Shown: positions 2,735 through 48,782 of the stretch, in pieces | Position numbering within the stretch: the first letter of the stretch is position 1 | Layout: each line of letters starts with the position of its first letter | Translations under genes and position numbers: made by a program | Assembly (NCBI GenBank): GCA_015056055.1 | Contig: SVHC01000003.1 | Span: 55,485-119,484, forward strand | Reading direction: 5' to 3' | Source: Clostridiales bacterium | GTDB taxonomy: Bacteria > Bacillota > Clostridia > Christensenellales > Aristaeellaceae | Length of the DNA stretch: 64,000 nt | Notes under the pieces: generated by a model | Databases searched by the model: none | What the model was told of the DNA's origin: nothing | The model's input: the letters and a program-made list of their open reading frames with translations, nothing else

Positions 2735-3520
2735 TTATTCCCCACTCCTTTTTTCGCGGCAAACGATCACGAGCATACCGTTTTCATCGCCGAGTTCGTT
2801 GGAGCAGGTGGAAAGGGTCAGAAGCCGATCTCCAAATGCCGTATCCACGTCAAGGTCAAAAAGGGAGCGCCACTTGACCTCAGAGGTATAGTCGTCAAAG
2901 GCGGCTTCATCGTCGAGCTCGGTCACAATATAGTCGAAGTGGTTATCCATTGCAAAATCGGTCGAGGTATAGAACACGGAGAACGGAACAAATTCATGCG
3001 TTTCATACAACCCCGCAAATCGGATGACAGGGTATTTTTCGATATATTCGCGATCGGCAAATCGCTTTAGCTTTCCGAACCGGGTACCGTCGTTCATATT
3101 ATGGCCGTAGAGAATGATATTTTCACTCTCCTTCGTACAGGCATAATCCATAAAGATCATCCCGCCCGGGTCTTCGCTTCCGTCAAGGCGGTGGGAAGCA
3201 TAGTAAACATTGTCCTCCCCCCGGCACACATACAGCGCCATATCGGCAAATTCCACGATACCCACGAAATCGTCATTCTGCATGTACAAATCCCGCATAT
3301 CCCCTCGCATGGCAGAGGTCGCCTCGGGCGCCGTTTCGCTCAGCGATTCCATCTGAGCAAGGGATGCATTCTCCTCAGCCTTCCGCCGGTGCGTTTCATG
3401 CATCCGCACGGCAATCAGAATGACCATCAGCAAAAATACAAGCAGGCAAAGCACCTCGAGGGTCTGCCAGAAGCGCCTTGCCTGCCATTTGATTTTGCCT
3501 GCATTTTCAGGCCGCTGCAT
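2735..3520 (-). CDS. class B sortase
   Basis: A 261-residue membrane-anchored transpeptidase. Residues 21-40 form the N-terminal membrane anchor; the catalytic triad is H140 in YGHNM, C239 in TLSTC and R255 in VIVCREKR. The YGHNM/TLSTC pair and the length are those of SrtB-type enzymes, which cleave a C-terminal sorting signal and attach the protein to the cell wall or to pilin-like partners. The ATG at 3520 is preferred over an upstream TTG (3541) because AGAAAGG lies just before it. The gene overlaps the stop of the upstream exported protein by 14 bp, so the two are translationally coupled. Its likely substrates are the three genes upstream in the same operon. Confidence 0.92.
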   Translation of the reverse strand: MQRPENAGKIKWQARRFWQTLEVLCLLVFLLMVILIAVRMHETHRRKAEENASLAQMESLSETAPEATSAMRGDMRDLYMQNDDFVGIVEFADMALYVCRGEDNVYYASHRLDGSEDPGGMIFMDYACTKESENIILYGHNMNDGTRFGKLKRFADREYIEKYPVIRFAGLYETHEFVPFSVFYTSTDFAMDNHFDYIVTELDDEAAFDDYTSEVKWRSLFDLDVDTAFGDRLLTLSTCSNELGDENGMLVIVCREKRSGE

Positions 3521-4067
3521 GCTTTGCCTTTCTGTGCGCAAACACCGCGCCGGAAACGGCGATTACTGCCGCACCGCAGAGAAGAAGGACATCCGCTCTT
3601 CCATCGCCCATACGGATGGGATTGCCAAATTCGTCCGCGCGCATGTATTTGTCCATGTATTCTCTGTCACCATAACGAGTGTCCCACGAAAGTACAAACA
3701 TCAAATCATCGTCCCAAATGCTTTCGTATACATTGCCGGCAGGGGTCACAATGTGCCCATCTTCGTTATAATAAAATCCTTCCGGAAGCACATATCGCAC
3801 TTCATCACGGATAGGATTTCCAAATTCATCCGCGCGCATATATTTGTCCATGTATTCCTTACTGCGATAGTTAGAGTTCCACCTGAGCTCATCTATGATT
3901 TCCTCATCAAAAATGCTATCGTATACTTTTCCTGAATTCGTTACGATTTGCCCGGCTTCGTTATAATGAAGCCAATCGGGAAGTACGTAGCGATACTCAT
4001 CCGCACAAGCAGAAACAGAAGCAAACAACACAAATGCAACTAACACGCTCACAATCATTCTTTTCAT
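3507..4067 (-). CDS. exported protein with duplicated domain and sortase-like C-terminal signal
   Basis: 186 residues: signal peptide at 1-22 (MKRMIVSVLVAFVLFASVSA, then CADE); two copies of a roughly 62-residue acidic, aromatic-rich domain (about 23-88 and 89-152), each ending in ADEFGNPIR; then MGDGRAD, a hydrophobic stretch and the positive tail HRKAKH. NPIRMGD plus hydrophobic segment plus basic tail has the architecture of a cell-wall sorting signal with no LPXTG. The first copy lacks the MGD tail, as expected for an internal repeat. A cysteine follows the signal peptide, but without a clear L-x-x-C lipobox (ASVSAC is only a weak one), so lipoprotein processing is possible but doubtful. 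The domain matches no family I recognise. It is third in the four-gene minus-strand operon. Confidence 0.82.
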   Translation of the reverse strand: MKRMIVSVLVAFVLFASVSACADEYRYVLPDWLHYNEAGQIVTNSGKVYDSIFDEEIIDELRWNSNYRSKEYMDKYMRADEFGNPIRDEVRYVLPEGFYYNEDGHIVTPAGNVYESIWDDDLMFVLSWDTRYGDREYMDKYMRADEFGNPIRMGDGRADVLLLCGAAVIAVSGAVFAHRKAKHAAA

Positions 4068-4100
4068 AATACACCTCCATCGGCCTTACCGATTCCTGCT
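4068..4100 (-). repeat. intergenic palindrome, copy 1 (copy 2 at 4464-4496)
   Basis: The spacers between the three paralogues are almost the same 33 bp: a small hairpin (ATCGGTAAGGCCGAT here, ATCGGTAAGACCGAT in copy 2) just before the GGAGGTGTATT ribosome site. They were copied along with the genes and could tune or separate messages within the operon. Confidence 0.7.
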
Positions 4101-4463
4101 TTATTGTACATGCTTTGCTTTTCTGTGTGCAAACGCTGCACCGGAAACGGCAATTACTGCTGCGCCGCAGAGAAGAAGGATGTCCGCTCTTCCATCGCCC
4201 ATACGGATGGGATTGCCAAATTCGTCCGCGCGCATGTATTTGTCCATGTATTCCCTGTCGTTATAACGGCCATACCACTCAAGTACAAAATTTAAATCAT
4301 CGTCCCAAATGCTTTCGTATACATTGCCTGCAGGGGTTACGATATGCCCGTCTTCGTTATAGTAAAATCCTTCCGGAAGTATATACCGTACTTCGTCCGC
4401 GCAGGCGTGTACGGAAGCAAGCAGCATAAATACGATCAGTATGCTCAGAACTACTCTTTTCAT
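4101..4463 (-). CDS. exported single-domain paralogue with sortase-like signal
   Basis: 120 residues: signal peptide (MKRVVLSILIVFMLLASVHA), one domain beginning DEVRYILPEGFYYNEDGH and ending ADEFGNPIR, then MGDGRAD, hydrophobic segment and HRKAKHVQ. It is almost identical in its second half to the neighbours at 3507-4067 and 4497-4859, so the three arose by recent tandem duplication. The ribosome site GGAGGTGTATT precedes the ATG. The spacer on each side of this gene repeats a short palindrome (ATCGGTAAG-CCGAT type). Product is predicted to be displayed on the surface by the adjacent sortase. Function unknown. Confidence 0.82.
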   Translation of the reverse strand: MKRVVLSILIVFMLLASVHACADEVRYILPEGFYYNEDGHIVTPAGNVYESIWDDDLNFVLEWYGRYNDREYMDKYMRADEFGNPIRMGDGRADILLLCGAAVIAVSGAAFAHRKAKHVQ

Positions 4464-4496
4464 AATACACCTCCATCGGTCTTACCGATTCCTGCT

Positions 4497-4859
4497 TTAT
4501 TGTACATGCTTTGCTTTTCTGTGTGCAAACGCTGCGCCGGAAACGGCAATTACTGCTGCGCCGCAGAGGAGAAGGATGTCCGCTCTTCCATCGCCCATAC
4601 GGATAGGATTTCCAAATTCATCCACGCGCATATATTTGTCCATGTATTCTTTGTCGTTATAATGGTCGAACCAAGTGCGCACAGAGCTTAATCCCTCGTC
4701 CCACCAGCTTTCATATACATTCCCTGAACTTGTTACAATATATCCATCTTCGTTATAGTAAAACCCTTCCGGAAGTATGTATCGTACTTCATCCGCACAG
4801 GCGGAAACAGAAGCAAACAACACAAATGCAACTAACACGCTCACAATCATTCTTTTCAT
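4497..4859 (-). CDS. exported single-domain paralogue, first gene of the sortase operon
   Basis: 120 residues with the same plan: signal peptide, one domain (DEVRYILPEGFYYNEDGY to VDEFGNPIR), MGDGRAD, hydrophobic segment, HRKAKHVQ. The middle of the domain (YESWWDEGLSSVRTWFDHY) is the most diverged stretch among the three paralogues, while the signal peptide and the C-terminal signal are nearly invariant. This suggests a conserved anchoring frame with a variable exposed part. Its start has its own promoter at 4927-4956, so the operon order is 4859, 4463, 4067, then the sortase. Confidence 0.82.
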   Translation of the reverse strand: MKRMIVSVLVAFVLFASVSACADEVRYILPEGFYYNEDGYIVTSSGNVYESWWDEGLSSVRTWFDHYNDKEYMDKYMRVDEFGNPIRMGDGRADILLLCGAAVIAVSGAAFAHRKAKHVQ

Positions 4860-4926: not shown

Positions 4927-4956
4927 ATTATGGCACAGAGGGCAGGATTTTGTCAA
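4927..4956 (-). promoter_or_regulatory. promoter of the sortase operon
   Basis: On the minus strand TTGACA (4956-4951), 18-bp spacer, CATAAT (4932-4927), about 68 bp before the ATG at 4859. Confidence 0.8.
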
Positions 4957-5182: not shown

Positions 5183-7162
5183 ATGCTTTTCCAGAAGGAC
5201 CATATGCTGGTTTCCCGCTTCAACGATGAAAAAATCTTCGTGGAAGCATGGGGTGAAAACGGCGTACGTGTACGCATTACGAAAAATGCCGCACTGCGCG
5301 GCGACCGCTGGAGCGCACTGCTTCCGGACGGCGCAAAGCAGGCTGATGAAATCAACATCACCGCAAACAACTGCGCCACGCTGAAAAACGGCAAAATTAC
5401 CGCCTGTTTTGAACAAAACGTTCTTGTTTTCCGCAACGAAAAGGGCGAAGAGCTGCTGGCCGAGTTCTGGCAGGGCAACCGTCCGCTGGACAAGAAAGTG
5501 CCGCACAATCCCATCTATTTCGCCAGCCGCATCTGGTATCCGCAGGCTGCAGGCGCATCCCGCATCGAATACCGCTTCAAGGCATATGACGATGAAAAGA
5601 TCTTCGGCATGGGCCAGTATCAGGACGATCGTTTCGACCGCAAGGGCTCCACGCTGGAGCTTGCTCCCCGCAACACGCAGGCGAGCATTCCCTTCTATTA
5701 TTCCAGCCGCGGCTACGGCTTCCTGTGGAACAATCCGTGCCTGGGCCGCGCAACCTTCGGCGCAAACTACACCCAGTGGGAAGCAGTTTCCACGGATGAA
5801 CTCGATTTCTGGGTAACCGCTGGCGATTCCCCGCGCGAAATCGAGCGCCAGTATGCCGAAGTAACCGGCAAGAGCCCCATGATGCCCGATTACGCCATGG
5901 GCTTCTGGCAGTGCAAGCTGCTGTACGCCGACCAGAACGAACTGATGACCGTTGCCCGCGAATACTATCGCCGCAAGATCCCGGTAAAGGTTATCATCAT
6001 CGACTTCTTCCACTGGACCAAGTTCGGCAACTGGTTCCTGGATCCCAAAAAGTGGCCGGATCCCAAGGGCATGGTTGAAGAGCTCAAGTCTATGGGCATG
6101 GAGCTGATGGTTTCCGTATGGCCGTCCATTGAAACCGAGAGCGATAACTACGAGGAGATGCTGGAAGCGGGCTACATGATCCGCACCAAGGCAGGTCTGC
6201 CCTTCGGCTGCCTGTTCGGCTCCAACATCACGTTCGTGGATTCCACCAATCCCGATGCACGCAAGTACCTGTGGGAAAAGATCAAGAAGAACTATTACGA
6301 GCTGGGCATCCGCAACTACTGGCTGGACTGCGCCGAGCCCGAATATTCCAACCCCACCTTCTCCAACTTTGTATATGATGCAGGCCCGGCCGAAATGTGC
6401 GCAAACCTGTACCCCGTGGAATACTCCAAAGCATTCTATGAGGGACTGCGCGAATCCGGCGAAGAGCTGCCCATCAGCCTGACCCGCTGCGCATGGGCCG
6501 GTACCCAGCGCTACGGCACCCTTCTGTGGTCCGGCGATATTTACGCCACCTGGAAGGCATTCAAGCAGCAGATTCCCTCCGGTCAGAACGTCGGCATGAG
6601 CGGCGTGCCGTGGTGGAACACCGATATCGGCGGCTTCATCGGCGGCGACCGCGCCGATCCCGATTACTGCGAACTGATCACCCGCTGGTTCGAGTGGGGC
6701 ACCTTCTGCCCGGTCATGCGTCTGCACGGCGCACGCGAAGGTCAGCGTGAGGAAGGCTACACGCCGCCGAACGAGATCTGGGTATACGGCGAAAAGGCCG
6801 ACGAGATCATGGAGAAGCACATCCGCCTGCGCGAGAGGATGTTCCCGTACATCAAGCGCTGCATGCAGGAAGCTACCGAAACCGGCGATCCCGTTATCCG
6901 CGCCATGTTCTATGAATTCCCGAATGACGAGAAGGCATGGAACCTGCCCTATCAGTACATGCTGGGCAGCGACCTGCTCGTCGCTCCCGTGCTTGAGCCC
7001 GGCGTTACCGAACTGGCTGTTTACCTCCCCGAGGGCGAAAGCTGGATCGATATCCGCGACGGCAAGGAATATGCCGGCGGCCAGACCGTAACCCTGCCCG
7101 CTCCCCTGGAGAGCATTCCCGTACTGCGCAGAAAGAGCGCGGAGGCCATGTTCGAATTCTAA
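5183..7162 (+). CDS. GH31 alpha-glycosidase, probable alpha-xylosidase
   Basis: 659 residues: an N-terminal beta-sandwich (about 1-220), a (beta/alpha)8 barrel and C-terminal beta domains. The nucleophile is D382 in WLDCAEPE and the acid/base D452 in WSGDI. The WLD-x-AEPE form is common to the XylS/YicI-like xylosidase branch rather than the maltase branch (WLDMNEP). It removes terminal alpha-xylose (or alpha-glucose) from short oligosaccharides. There is no signal peptide, so action is cytoplasmic. ATG at 5183 follows AAAGGGGTG. A close paralogue lies directly downstream (7348-9309). Specificity between xylose and glucose is inference. Confidence 0.9.
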   Translation: MLFQKDHMLVSRFNDEKIFVEAWGENGVRVRITKNAALRGDRWSALLPDGAKQADEINITANNCATLKNGKITACFEQNVLVFRNEKGEELLAEFWQGNRPLDKKVPHNPIYFASRIWYPQAAGASRIEYRFKAYDDEKIFGMGQYQDDRFDRKGSTLELAPRNTQASIPFYYSSRGYGFLWNNPCLGRATFGANYTQWEAVSTDELDFWVTAGDSPREIERQYAEVTGKSPMMPDYAMGFWQCKLLYADQNELMTVAREYYRRKIPVKVIIIDFFHWTKFGNWFLDPKKWPDPKGMVEELKSMGMELMVSVWPSIETESDNYEEMLEAGYMIRTKAGLPFGCLFGSNITFVDSTNPDARKYLWEKIKKNYYELGIRNYWLDCAEPEYSNPTFSNFVYDAGPAEMCANLYPVEYSKAFYEGLRESGEELPISLTRCAWAGTQRYGTLLWSGDIYATWKAFKQQIPSGQNVGMSGVPWWNTDIGGFIGGDRADPDYCELITRWFEWGTFCPVMRLHGAREGQREEGYTPPNEIWVYGEKADEIMEKHIRLRERMFPYIKRCMQEATETGDPVIRAMFYEFPNDEKAWNLPYQYMLGSDLLVAPVLEPGVTELAVYLPEGESWIDIRDGKEYAGGQTVTLPAPLESIPVLRRKSAEAMFEF

Positions 7163-7347: not shown

Positions 7348-9309
7348 ATGATCTATCAGAAAGACCATATGCTGGTTTTCCAGTATGATGACGAAAAAGT
7401 ATTTGTGGAAGCATGGGGCAAAAACGGCATCCGCGTGCGCGCAACCAAAAAGAATGCCCTGCGCGGCGAAGCATACAGCGCACTTCTGCCGGCAGAACCC
7501 ATGACCGCCGATGCGATCGAAATCGGCGAAAACGGCGATGCAAAGCTCGTGAACGGCAAGATCACCGCCGAATTCAAGCATAACGTGCTGACCTTCTATA
7601 ACGACAAGGGTGAAGAGCTCATCGGTGAAAGCTGGCGCGGCGGTCCGCTGAACTATCCCGTGCCGCATGATCCGAATCTGCTTGCCGCACGCGAATGGCG
7701 CAAGAAGGATAACGGCTACCGCGTGCAGTGTCGTTTTAAGGCCTACGAAGGCGAAAAGATCTACGGCATGGGCCAGCATCCGGAAACCGTGTTCGACCGC
7801 AAGGGCACGACCCTTGAACTTGCCCCGCGCAACAAGCAGGCAAACATCCCCTTCTATGTTTCCAGCCGCGGCTACGGCTTCCTGTGGAACAATCCGGCCA
7901 TCGGCCGCGCGACCTTTGCCACCAACTATACCCAGTGGGAAGCCGACCTGACCGACGAGATCGATTTCTGGGTGACCGCAGGCGATACGCCGCGCGAAAT
8001 CGAGCGCCAGTATGCAGAGGCAGGCGGCAAGACGCCCATGATGCCCGATTACGCCATGGGCTTCTGGCAGTGTAAGCTGCGCTATGTCACGCAGGATGAG
8101 CTGCTTGAAGTCGCCCGCGAATACTACCGCCGCAAGGTGCCCGTAAAGGTCATCATCATCGACTTCTGCCACTGGACCAAGCACGGCAACTGGTTCCTCG
8201 ATCCCGAATACTGGCCGGACCCGCAGGCTATGGTGGACGAGCTCAAGTCCATGGGCATGGAAGTTGTGGCATCCGTATGGCCCTCCATGGAACCCGGCAG
8301 CGACAACTATAAGGAAATGACCGAAAAGGGTCTGCTGGTGCACAACAATTTCGGCCAGCACTACGGCCAACAGAACACGCTCACCTTCGTTGATACCACC
8401 AATCCCGAGGCATGCAAGTTCCTGTGGGAAAAGATCAAAAAGAACTATTACAGCTACGGCATCCGCAACTTCTGGCTGGACTGCGCAGAGCCCGAATATT
8501 GGAAACCCGATTTCTCGCAGTATTCCTACTATGCAGGCCAGGCCGAAATGTGCGGCAACCTCTATCCCGTGGAATATTCCAAGATGTTCTATGAAGGTCT
8601 GCGCGCTGAGGGTGAAGAAATGCCCATCAGCCTTACCCGCTGCGCATACGCAGGCAGCCAGCGCTACGGCACTCTCCTGTGGTCCGGTGACATTCACTCC
8701 CGCTGGGACGTTCTGCGCGACCAGATTCCGCTGGGCCAGAACGTTGCAATGAGCGGTCTGCCGTGGTGGAACACCGATATCGGCGGCTTTATGATGGGCG
8801 TGCATGAGGATCCTGATTTCCGCGAGCTGCTCATCCGCTGGTTTGAGTGGGGCACCTTCTGCCCGGTCATGCGCCTGCACGGCATCCGCGAAGGCAAAGC
8901 AACCCCGCCGTTCACCCCGCCGAACGAAATCTGGAGCTACGGCGAGGAAAACTGCGTGATCATGGAAAACCACATTCGCCTGCGCGAAAAGATGTTCCCC
9001 TATATCAAGCGCACCATGCAGGAAGCCCATGAAACCGGCGACCCCGTTATCCGCCCGATGTTCTATGAATTCCCGAATGACGAAAAGGCATGGAACCTGC
9101 CCTATCAGTACATGTTCGGCAGCGACCTCTTGGTTGCTCCCGTTCTTGAAGCCGGTGCCCGCAGCGTAGAGGCTTACCTGCCCAAAGGCGAAAGCTGGAT
9201 CGATATCCGCGACGGTAAGGAGTATGCAGGCGGTCAGACTGTGACCCTGCCCGCTCCCATCGAGAGCATCCCCGTGCTTAGAAGAAAGAGCGCCGAAGTT
9301 CTGTTCTAA
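7348..9309 (+). CDS. second GH31 alpha-glycosidase, tandem paralogue
   Basis: 653 residues, collinear and highly similar with the first GH31 over its whole length. Nucleophile D378 in WLDCAEPE, acid/base D448 in WSGDI. The C-terminal 80 residues are nearly identical between the two, while the region after the third barrel strand (LLVHNNFGQHYGQQN here, YMIRTKAGLPFGCLF in the first) differs, which is where GH31 substrate pockets vary. Cytoplasmic, no signal peptide. AAGGAGAG precedes the ATG. The duplicate probably has a shifted linkage or sugar preference. Confidence 0.9.
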   Translation: MIYQKDHMLVFQYDDEKVFVEAWGKNGIRVRATKKNALRGEAYSALLPAEPMTADAIEIGENGDAKLVNGKITAEFKHNVLTFYNDKGEELIGESWRGGPLNYPVPHDPNLLAAREWRKKDNGYRVQCRFKAYEGEKIYGMGQHPETVFDRKGTTLELAPRNKQANIPFYVSSRGYGFLWNNPAIGRATFATNYTQWEADLTDEIDFWVTAGDTPREIERQYAEAGGKTPMMPDYAMGFWQCKLRYVTQDELLEVAREYYRRKVPVKVIIIDFCHWTKHGNWFLDPEYWPDPQAMVDELKSMGMEVVASVWPSMEPGSDNYKEMTEKGLLVHNNFGQHYGQQNTLTFVDTTNPEACKFLWEKIKKNYYSYGIRNFWLDCAEPEYWKPDFSQYSYYAGQAEMCGNLYPVEYSKMFYEGLRAEGEEMPISLTRCAYAGSQRYGTLLWSGDIHSRWDVLRDQIPLGQNVAMSGLPWWNTDIGGFMMGVHEDPDFRELLIRWFEWGTFCPVMRLHGIREGKATPPFTPPNEIWSYGEENCVIMENHIRLREKMFPYIKRTMQEAHETGDPVIRPMFYEFPNDEKAWNLPYQYMFGSDLLVAPVLEAGARSVEAYLPKGESWIDIRDGKEYAGGQTVTLPAPIESIPVLRRKSAEVLF

Positions 9310-45095: not shown

Positions 45096-45172
45096 GCTGA
45101 TGTAGCTCAGCCGGTAGAGCGCATCCTTGGTAAGGATGAGGTTCACGAGTTCGATTCTCGTCATCAGCTCCA
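45096..45172 (+). tRNA. tRNA-Thr (anticodon GGT), copy 1, CCA encoded
   Basis: Acceptor GCTGATG/CATCAGC, D-arm GCTC..GAGC, anticodon stem CATCC/GGATG with loop TTGGTAA (anticodon GGT, codons ACC/ACU), T-arm ACGAG-TTCGATT-CTCGT, discriminator T, CCA 45170-45172. Identical to copy 2 at 48706-48782. Confidence 0.97.
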
Positions 45173-48705: not shown

Positions 48706-48782
48706 GCTGATGTAGCTCAGCCGGTAGAGCGCATCCTTGGTAAGGATGAGGTTCACGAGTTCGATTCTCGTCATCAGCTCCA
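48706..48782 (+). tRNA. tRNA-Thr (anticodon GGT), copy 2, CCA encoded
   Basis: Identical in sequence to copy 1 over all 77 bases; CCA at 48780-48782. Flanking hairpins are duplicated too. Confidence 0.97.

Follow-up and report, generated by a model that had tools for sequence, protein, structure and literature searches.

A class B-type sortase with neighbouring exported proteins that carry a candidate Leu/Met-Gly-Asp sorting signal in a gut bacterium

Introduction

Class B sortases, such as SrtB of B. anthracis, S. aureus and C. difficile (model TIGR03064), attach proteins to the cell wall and have a common fold, a single N-terminal membrane helix, a catalytic His and Cys and a conserved Asn (Asn92). 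Their genes adjoin those of their substrates, and Gly-Asp can follow the scissile residue, as in the B. anthracis SrtB substrate DNPKTGDE. A recent paper (PMC13257024) attributes a His-Cys-Arg triad to sortases of every class, and all of the class motifs that it lists contain Thr. In C. difficile SrtB, the triad Arg (Arg217) comes right after the loop 210–216 (TYEFDDA) that follows Cys209, and in a model of this enzyme it hydrogen-bonds the Thr hydroxyl, as described in parts of PMC5118464. The equivalent Cys and Arg of B. anthracis SrtB are C233 and R243. All activity of this enzyme was lost in mutants of catalytic residues (H140A and R243A) and in L106A, and its AlphaFold2 model contacts the Asp that follows Gly (excerpts of PMC11987632).

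Two further kinds of system are relevant to this report. The AbpA-SrtB pair of oral streptococci consists of one dedicated class B sortase and a small adhesin with an unusual signal, LPKTS, that keeps Thr, ends in a three-residue AVK tail and has no membrane segment (sections of PMC4974636). In addition, Leu instead of Thr is tolerated or even preferred by several class A sortases in vitro, where Leu fits the scissile-residue pocket and cleavage occurs before Gly; the substrates in these cases are synthetic peptides (parts of PMC10763551 and PMC9126251). In the open-licence PubMed Central literature, in vitro class A work was all that was found on Leu or Met signals or on sortases without the Arg.

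The operon and its surroundings

The stretch of DNA analysed here, referred to as the window, is 64,000 nt long and belongs to a gut bacterium with a genome of 2.83 Mb in 80 contigs. On its minus strand, three tandem genes for small exported paralogues (4859–3507) are followed by a sortase gene as the last gene of an operon (Table 1). This layout had been part of the original prediction, and all four ORFs were confirmed. From its sequence, the sortase gene probably begins at ATG 3520, within the 3′ end of the last substrate gene and with AGAAAGG six bases upstream; the alternative start at TTG 3541 in the ORF listing would give a protein of 268 aa and is less likely. Matches like the promoter-like site upstream of the operon exceeded the shuffled count in the region, but they fall short of proof.

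Table 1. Features of the sortase operon, with positions in the window
Feature	Position	Strand	Basis or remark
Promoter-like site TTGACA-18-CATAAT, TG before second hexamer	4927..4956	-	11/12; upstream of operon; consensus match only
Exported substrate 1, 120 aa	4497..4859	-	signal peptide, one domain, MGD signal, membrane segment, basic tail
M-G-D of sorting signal, substrate 1	4590..4598	-	pattern scan
Exported substrate 2, 120 aa	4101..4463	-	plan as substrate 1
M-G-D of sorting signal, substrate 2	4194..4202	-	pattern scan
Exported substrate 3, 186 aa	3507..4067	-	two tandem domains, then MGD signal, membrane segment, basic tail
NPIR closing first (internal) domain repeat of substrate 3	3807..3818	-	no MGD or membrane segment following
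M-G-D of sorting signal, substrate 3	3603..3611	-	pattern scan
Class B-type sortase, "YVC" clade, 261 aa from ATG	2735..3520	-	single N-terminal membrane helix
Cys99 of signature YVC	3224..3226	-	Cys at this column in 5/5 clade members, 0/60 other aligned sortases
Ala108 in place of peptide-contacting Leu (S. aureus L96; B. anthracis L106)	3197..3199	-	alignment
His140, catalytic	3101..3103	-	alignment to S. aureus SrtB H130
Cys239, catalytic nucleophile (TLSTC)	2804..2806	-	alignment to S. aureus SrtB C223
Met249 at place of triad Arg (S. aureus SrtB R233, C. difficile SrtB R217)	2774..2776	-	codon ATG; alignment
Arg255, further along last strand	2756..2758	-	alignment; Val in relative G292

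Several other features lie in the window. A gene for a DUF3842 protein, followed by one for an ECF transporter substrate-specific component, occupies 584–1621. A 153-nt unit present as three tandem copies (1817–2275; the second and third match the first at 99% and 86% identity) sits between a tRNA-Val gene (1700–1776) and a gene for a 23S rRNA-intervening-sequence-type protein (2270–2623, PF05635), and a 29-nt core of the unit, sought with up to two mismatches, occurs in the genome at those three places only. A long hairpin flanked by runs of A and of T (2684–2731) lies between two convergent genes and is a possible two-way terminator, as judged by eye; it is absent from the terminator scan list. 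A tandem pair of genes for family 31 glycosyl hydrolases (5183–7162 and 7348–9309; 659 and 653 aa) is on the strand opposite to the sortase operon. Farther away, two tRNA-Thr(GGT) genes (45096–45172 and 48706–48782) share a strand and are separated by 3.6 kb.

The sortase and its clade

Sequence and structural models both point to a class B-type sortase as the product of the last gene. The protein scores 30.3 bits on the sortase domain model PF04203 (cut-off 26.6), and the top 19 Foldseek rows for its AlphaFold2 model (mean pLDDT 72.7) are all class B structures. On the class B model TIGR03064 it reaches 121.9 bits (E 2.4e-35), under the cut-off of 153.75, and it reaches 31.7 where the model SrtB_LPKTxSAVK requires 200. 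The expectation of a SrtB-type enzyme with dedicated neighbouring substrates is supported, with the TIGR03064 score remaining below threshold.

Relatives were sought in the window's relatives (101 genomes), family (309), order (396) and class (391), and in genome_contigs. Four sortases with a signature in common with the window enzyme were found in the family genomes, where loci were read: G032, G162, G248 and G292. In these five proteins, Tyr-Val-Cys (LYVC in the window enzyme) replaces the usual YPV strand. A branch with SH-aLRT 95 separates them from the other sequences in a 65-row tree that was built by a quick search without bootstrap, with the YVC columns kept in and two clade members flagged as long branches; the signature itself was chosen after the sequences had been seen. 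At least five YVC members occur among the fetched matches of all searches, all of them from the window's family, and the clade may be larger since the signature was checked in fetched loci only (up to 30 per search). Of 21 sortases assessed by script in the class search, the window's own has the signature and 20 do not. Among the matches listed from plasmids, phages and viral contigs, there were only distant sortases, with up to 35.5% identity.

The triad Arg is replaced in part of this clade. The enzyme had been described as complete, with H140, C239 and R255. The first two, numbered from the ATG start, are indeed in place and the Asn92 equivalent is kept, but the triad Arg aligns with Met249, and R255 is another arginine. 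R255 lies 16 residues past the Cys, in comparison to 10 for the triad Arg of B. anthracis SrtB and 8 for that of C. difficile SrtB. In an alignment of 64 sortases from fetched loci plus S. aureus SrtB, the triad column holds Arg in 61 of 65 rows. The window enzyme has Met there, G032 has Cys and L216 has His; L143 shows Thr, probably through a one-residue misalignment. Three of the five clade members thus keep the Arg. The relative G292 was suspected of lacking it, given its end VVVCVQK; the alignment shows that the triad Arg is kept (GRLVV) and that only the equivalent of R255 is absent. Replacement of the Arg (two of five clade members versus one of 59 others, with one ambiguous viral row omitted) gave p 0.014. 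The Met249 codon and the Cys codon of G032 are each a single base step from Arg codons.

Such replacement is not limited to the YVC clade. The class B-type sortase near 5936 of L216 (genome G141) has His at this column (CIGEDHLVIL), yet it adjoins a 1820-residue frame that ends in a VPTGD signal. A further change in the window enzyme concerns Ala108, whose equivalence to B. anthracis L106 was counted from H140 in the alignment. In comparison to described class B sortases, then, the window enzyme carries Met for the triad Arg, LYVC for the YPV strand and Ala for the contact Leu.

The sorting signal

All three substrates end in DEFGNPIRMGDGRAD, a hydrophobic segment and HRKAKH. A DNA pattern for NPI(R/S)MGD occurs three times in the genome and not at all in the reversed control. 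NPIRMGD had been proposed as the cognate motif; this does not hold, as NPIR belongs to a repeated domain. The first domain copy of substrate 3 ends DEFGNPIR and continues directly into the next domain (DEVRY), so that this internal NPIR is followed by no anchor. In the relatives, the corresponding sequences are TPELGD, VGELGD and SDNLGD. The tails next to the sortases share [LM]GD, and the NPIR part is not kept. What was borne out is the oddity of Met in place of the usual Thr with Gly-Asp after it, the three relatives' loci having Leu-Gly-Asp. At the predicted scissile position there is Met in all three window substrates and Leu in all three substrates of relatives.

The proteins next to the related sortases follow one plan. 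In G032, a 136-residue exported protein is encoded just upstream of the sortase, whose longest frame overlaps it, and ends SDNLGDDDG, a membrane segment, RRWAKARR and a short extension. The upstream 128-residue exported protein of G162, a roe deer MAG, ends VGELGDHSVS, a membrane segment and ARHKRTARR. These two proteins are 23% (G032) and 17% (G162) identical to the window substrates. In G292, the substrate gene is downstream of the sortase (start about L108:5730), and its product ends TPELGDESAP, a membrane segment and YARKR. The contig of G248 starts within a likely gene upstream of the sortase, of which the readable part, by eye, is an end with a hydrophobic stretch and basic tail. Overall, [LM]GD followed by a hydrophobic segment and a basic tail was found in 4/4 readable clade loci (window, G032, G162 and G292; six ORFs), at 32–34 residues from the C-terminus, or 47 in G032.

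This result was obtained with a scan rule that required no motif and was identical for clade and control loci. Stricter scans missed the G032 substrate owing to a Glu inside its membrane segment, hence the use of one relaxed rule throughout. As controls, 68 regions surrounding other sortases were taken, three of them from the window genome; judged by their match to the window enzyme, most of these sortases are class B. From the 68 regions, 37 frames passed, among which 13 recognisable signals in 11 loci all had Thr before Gly or Asn (e.g., MPETG, VPKTG, SPETG, IPKTN and MPATG); three of the 13 were unflagged by the script and recognised by eye. The remaining 24 frames had no motif and by eye resemble antisense or chance frames. 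The split between [LM]GD in the clade and Thr in the controls has a Fisher p of 0.0007 by locus, or 0.003 once related control loci are merged into seven. The control set includes one cluster of the window genome, L059, whose sortases are not clearly class B; without it there are 10 Thr signals in 10 loci.

A second scan took in 115 loci, partly overlapping the first set and including L047 and shorter loci omitted before. It returned 41 frames, 23 of them flagged as Thr-type; after exclusion of two chance frames (L008 and L130) and five repeats of signals already counted, 16 signals remained that had not been counted before. Each of them has Thr, and Leu/Met-Gly-Asp occurs in none. Thr thus stands at the corresponding place in 29/29 recognisable control signals. 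The linkage of sortase and substrate is itself not general, since most control loci had no neighbouring substrate visible to the scan.

Profile searches gave a similar picture. A tail profile run over the 309 family genomes, with its own matches as rows, reached E < 1e-16 only in the four genomes used to build it, and the next match had E 8e-4. Five readable weak matches of this profile were rejected as sorting signals. The window substrates matched no LPXTG anchor model of Pfam or NCBIfam at E ≤ 1. The TPELGD signal of G292 scored 14.9 bits on the LPXTG model TIGR01167 (cut-off 15.9), a weak test given that two of four Thr-type controls matched (16.1 and 13.0) and two did not.

Thr signals persist elsewhere in the same genomes: LPETG, LPGTG and SPETG in that of the window and LPSTGG in G292. 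Besides the operon, the window genome has five places above the sortase cut-off and one weak match. At L059 (contig C71), sortase genes accompany three Thr-type surface proteins, of 511 aa (LPETG), 1495 aa (LPGTG) and 314 aa (SPETG, with a Cna_B domain). This may be a pilus locus.

The substrate proteins

The three substrates have in common a domain of ~65 residues, present twice in substrate 3. Each has an N-terminal hydrophobic stretch, read from the translations, and a C-terminal hydrophobic stretch with a basic tail, located by scripted scans. A lipoprotein reading was also considered. V-S-A-C in two copies presumably fits a lipobox and V-H-A-C in the third does not, while A-C-A before DE, as we take it, fits signal peptidase I in all three (both judged by eye); the lipoprotein reading was rejected on these grounds.

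Comparison of the copies indicates purifying selection, with the middle of the domain less constrained. At the domain end, pN is 0–0.04, with pS 0.44–0.55 in four of six copy pairs and 0.11 in two pairs; in the middle, pN is 0.09–0.32 versus pS 0.48–0.67. For the signal and tail, substrate 3 differs from each other copy by eight synonymous and two nonsynonymous changes (pS 0.34, pN 0.03), and substrates 1 and 2 differ by two synonymous changes only. Nonsynonymous per-site differences are below synonymous ones in every comparison between copies, and the idea of a small diversifying surface domain finds no support in them.

Homologues of the domain were sought widely. No convincing one was found in the 101 genomes, where two weak matches (E 0.002–0.004) were judged unrelated when their frames were read, and none was found in genome_contigs. 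By sequence, the domain has no relative in the PDB (best E 0.23), and its structural model (mean pLDDT 65.6) has no fold match (best E 0.77).

A proposed mechanism and its alternatives

The system is a variant within class B sortase systems rather than a separate kind. With these systems it shares the fold, membrane helix, His, Cys and Asn92 equivalent of the enzyme, the adjoining substrate genes and the Gly-Asp after the scissile residue; it differs in having Met or Leu rather than Thr before Gly and in its score below the TIGR03064 cut-off. It resembles AbpA-SrtB in its pairing of one dedicated sortase with small proteins, but its signal has no Thr and does have a membrane segment and basic tail. 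It departs from the class A cases in combining natural signals with a class B-like enzyme and in the regular presence of Leu or Met across the loci read.

We consider it probable that this is a dedicated sortase-substrate pair that has shifted to Leu/Met-Gly-Asp as its signal and whose catalysis may have changed as well. An ordinary signal peptide would direct the export of the three small acidic domain proteins, and their C-terminal hydrophobic stretch and basic tail would keep them in the membrane. The sortase would then cleave Met-Gly-Asp before the Gly, by way of an acyl-enzyme at Cys239, and transfer the substrates to the cell wall or onto each other. In the course of YVC clade evolution, the scissile Thr would have become Leu or Met with Gly-Asp retained, and the peptide groove would have changed alongside, with Tyr-Val-Cys for the YPV strand and Ala or Met for the Leu96 equivalent. 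We infer cleavage at Met-Gly, wall attachment and, with less certainty, activity of the window enzyme with its Met249. Predicted cleavage at Leu-Gly is chemically reasonable, given that class A sortases accept Leu for Thr in vitro. Against this account stand the loss in the window enzyme of both the Arg and the Leu whose mutation inactivates B. anthracis SrtB, the small number of independent readable signals (four), the TIGR03064 shortfall and the want of any LPXTG anchor match for the substrates.

A bolder version, which we put forward tentatively and regard as rather doubtful, is that the clade abandoned Thr-Gly for Leu/Met-Gly and that two of its members work without the Arg that is regarded as essential, as naturally Arg-free transpeptidases in which Arg and Thr were lost together. 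The contact between the Thr hydroxyl and the triad Arg in the C. difficile SrtB model is impossible for Leu or Met. The link between the two losses is a suggestion only, because three of five clade members keep the Arg and L216 has His together with a Thr signal.

The same replacements can be read as decay. The clade would still use [LM]GD, but the window enzyme and the Cys-bearing one of G032 would have lost, or be losing, activity, and the former might only bind substrates that stay anchored in the membrane. Single-base steps would suffice for both replacements of the Arg, a residue that, like L106, B. anthracis SrtB cannot do without. We think this unlikely, as the frame is intact, the sortase gene shares bases with that of substrate 3, the enzyme retains His, Cys and the Asn92 equivalent, and the substrate signals are under purifying selection. 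Moreover, two different replacements within the sole clade without Thr suggest an altered need rather than random decay.

It is more improbable still that the C-terminal segments are plain membrane anchors, with [LM]GD a coincidence or a trace of common descent and the sortase serving proteins encoded elsewhere. The lack of a canonical signal would fit this, as would the low identity of the G032 and G162 proteins to those of the window. Nevertheless, the [LM]GD plan adjoins every readable clade sortase, the tail profile has no other convincing match in the family genomes, and TPELGD comes close to the cut-off of TIGR01167, a model that only two of the four Thr controls match. Lastly, an assembly or sequencing error that hides an ordinary triad behind Met249 could arise from a single base in this one draft genome, but is very improbable with Cys at the same column in a second clade genome, the contact Leu changed too and no frameshift or stop present.

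Significance

If the dedicated pair is as proposed, a natural sortase-substrate pair without Thr, with some members also without the Arg, would show which parts of sortase chemistry are dispensable. It would provide a ligase whose signal is orthogonal to LPXTG, and it would reveal wall-anchored proteins that motif searches overlook.
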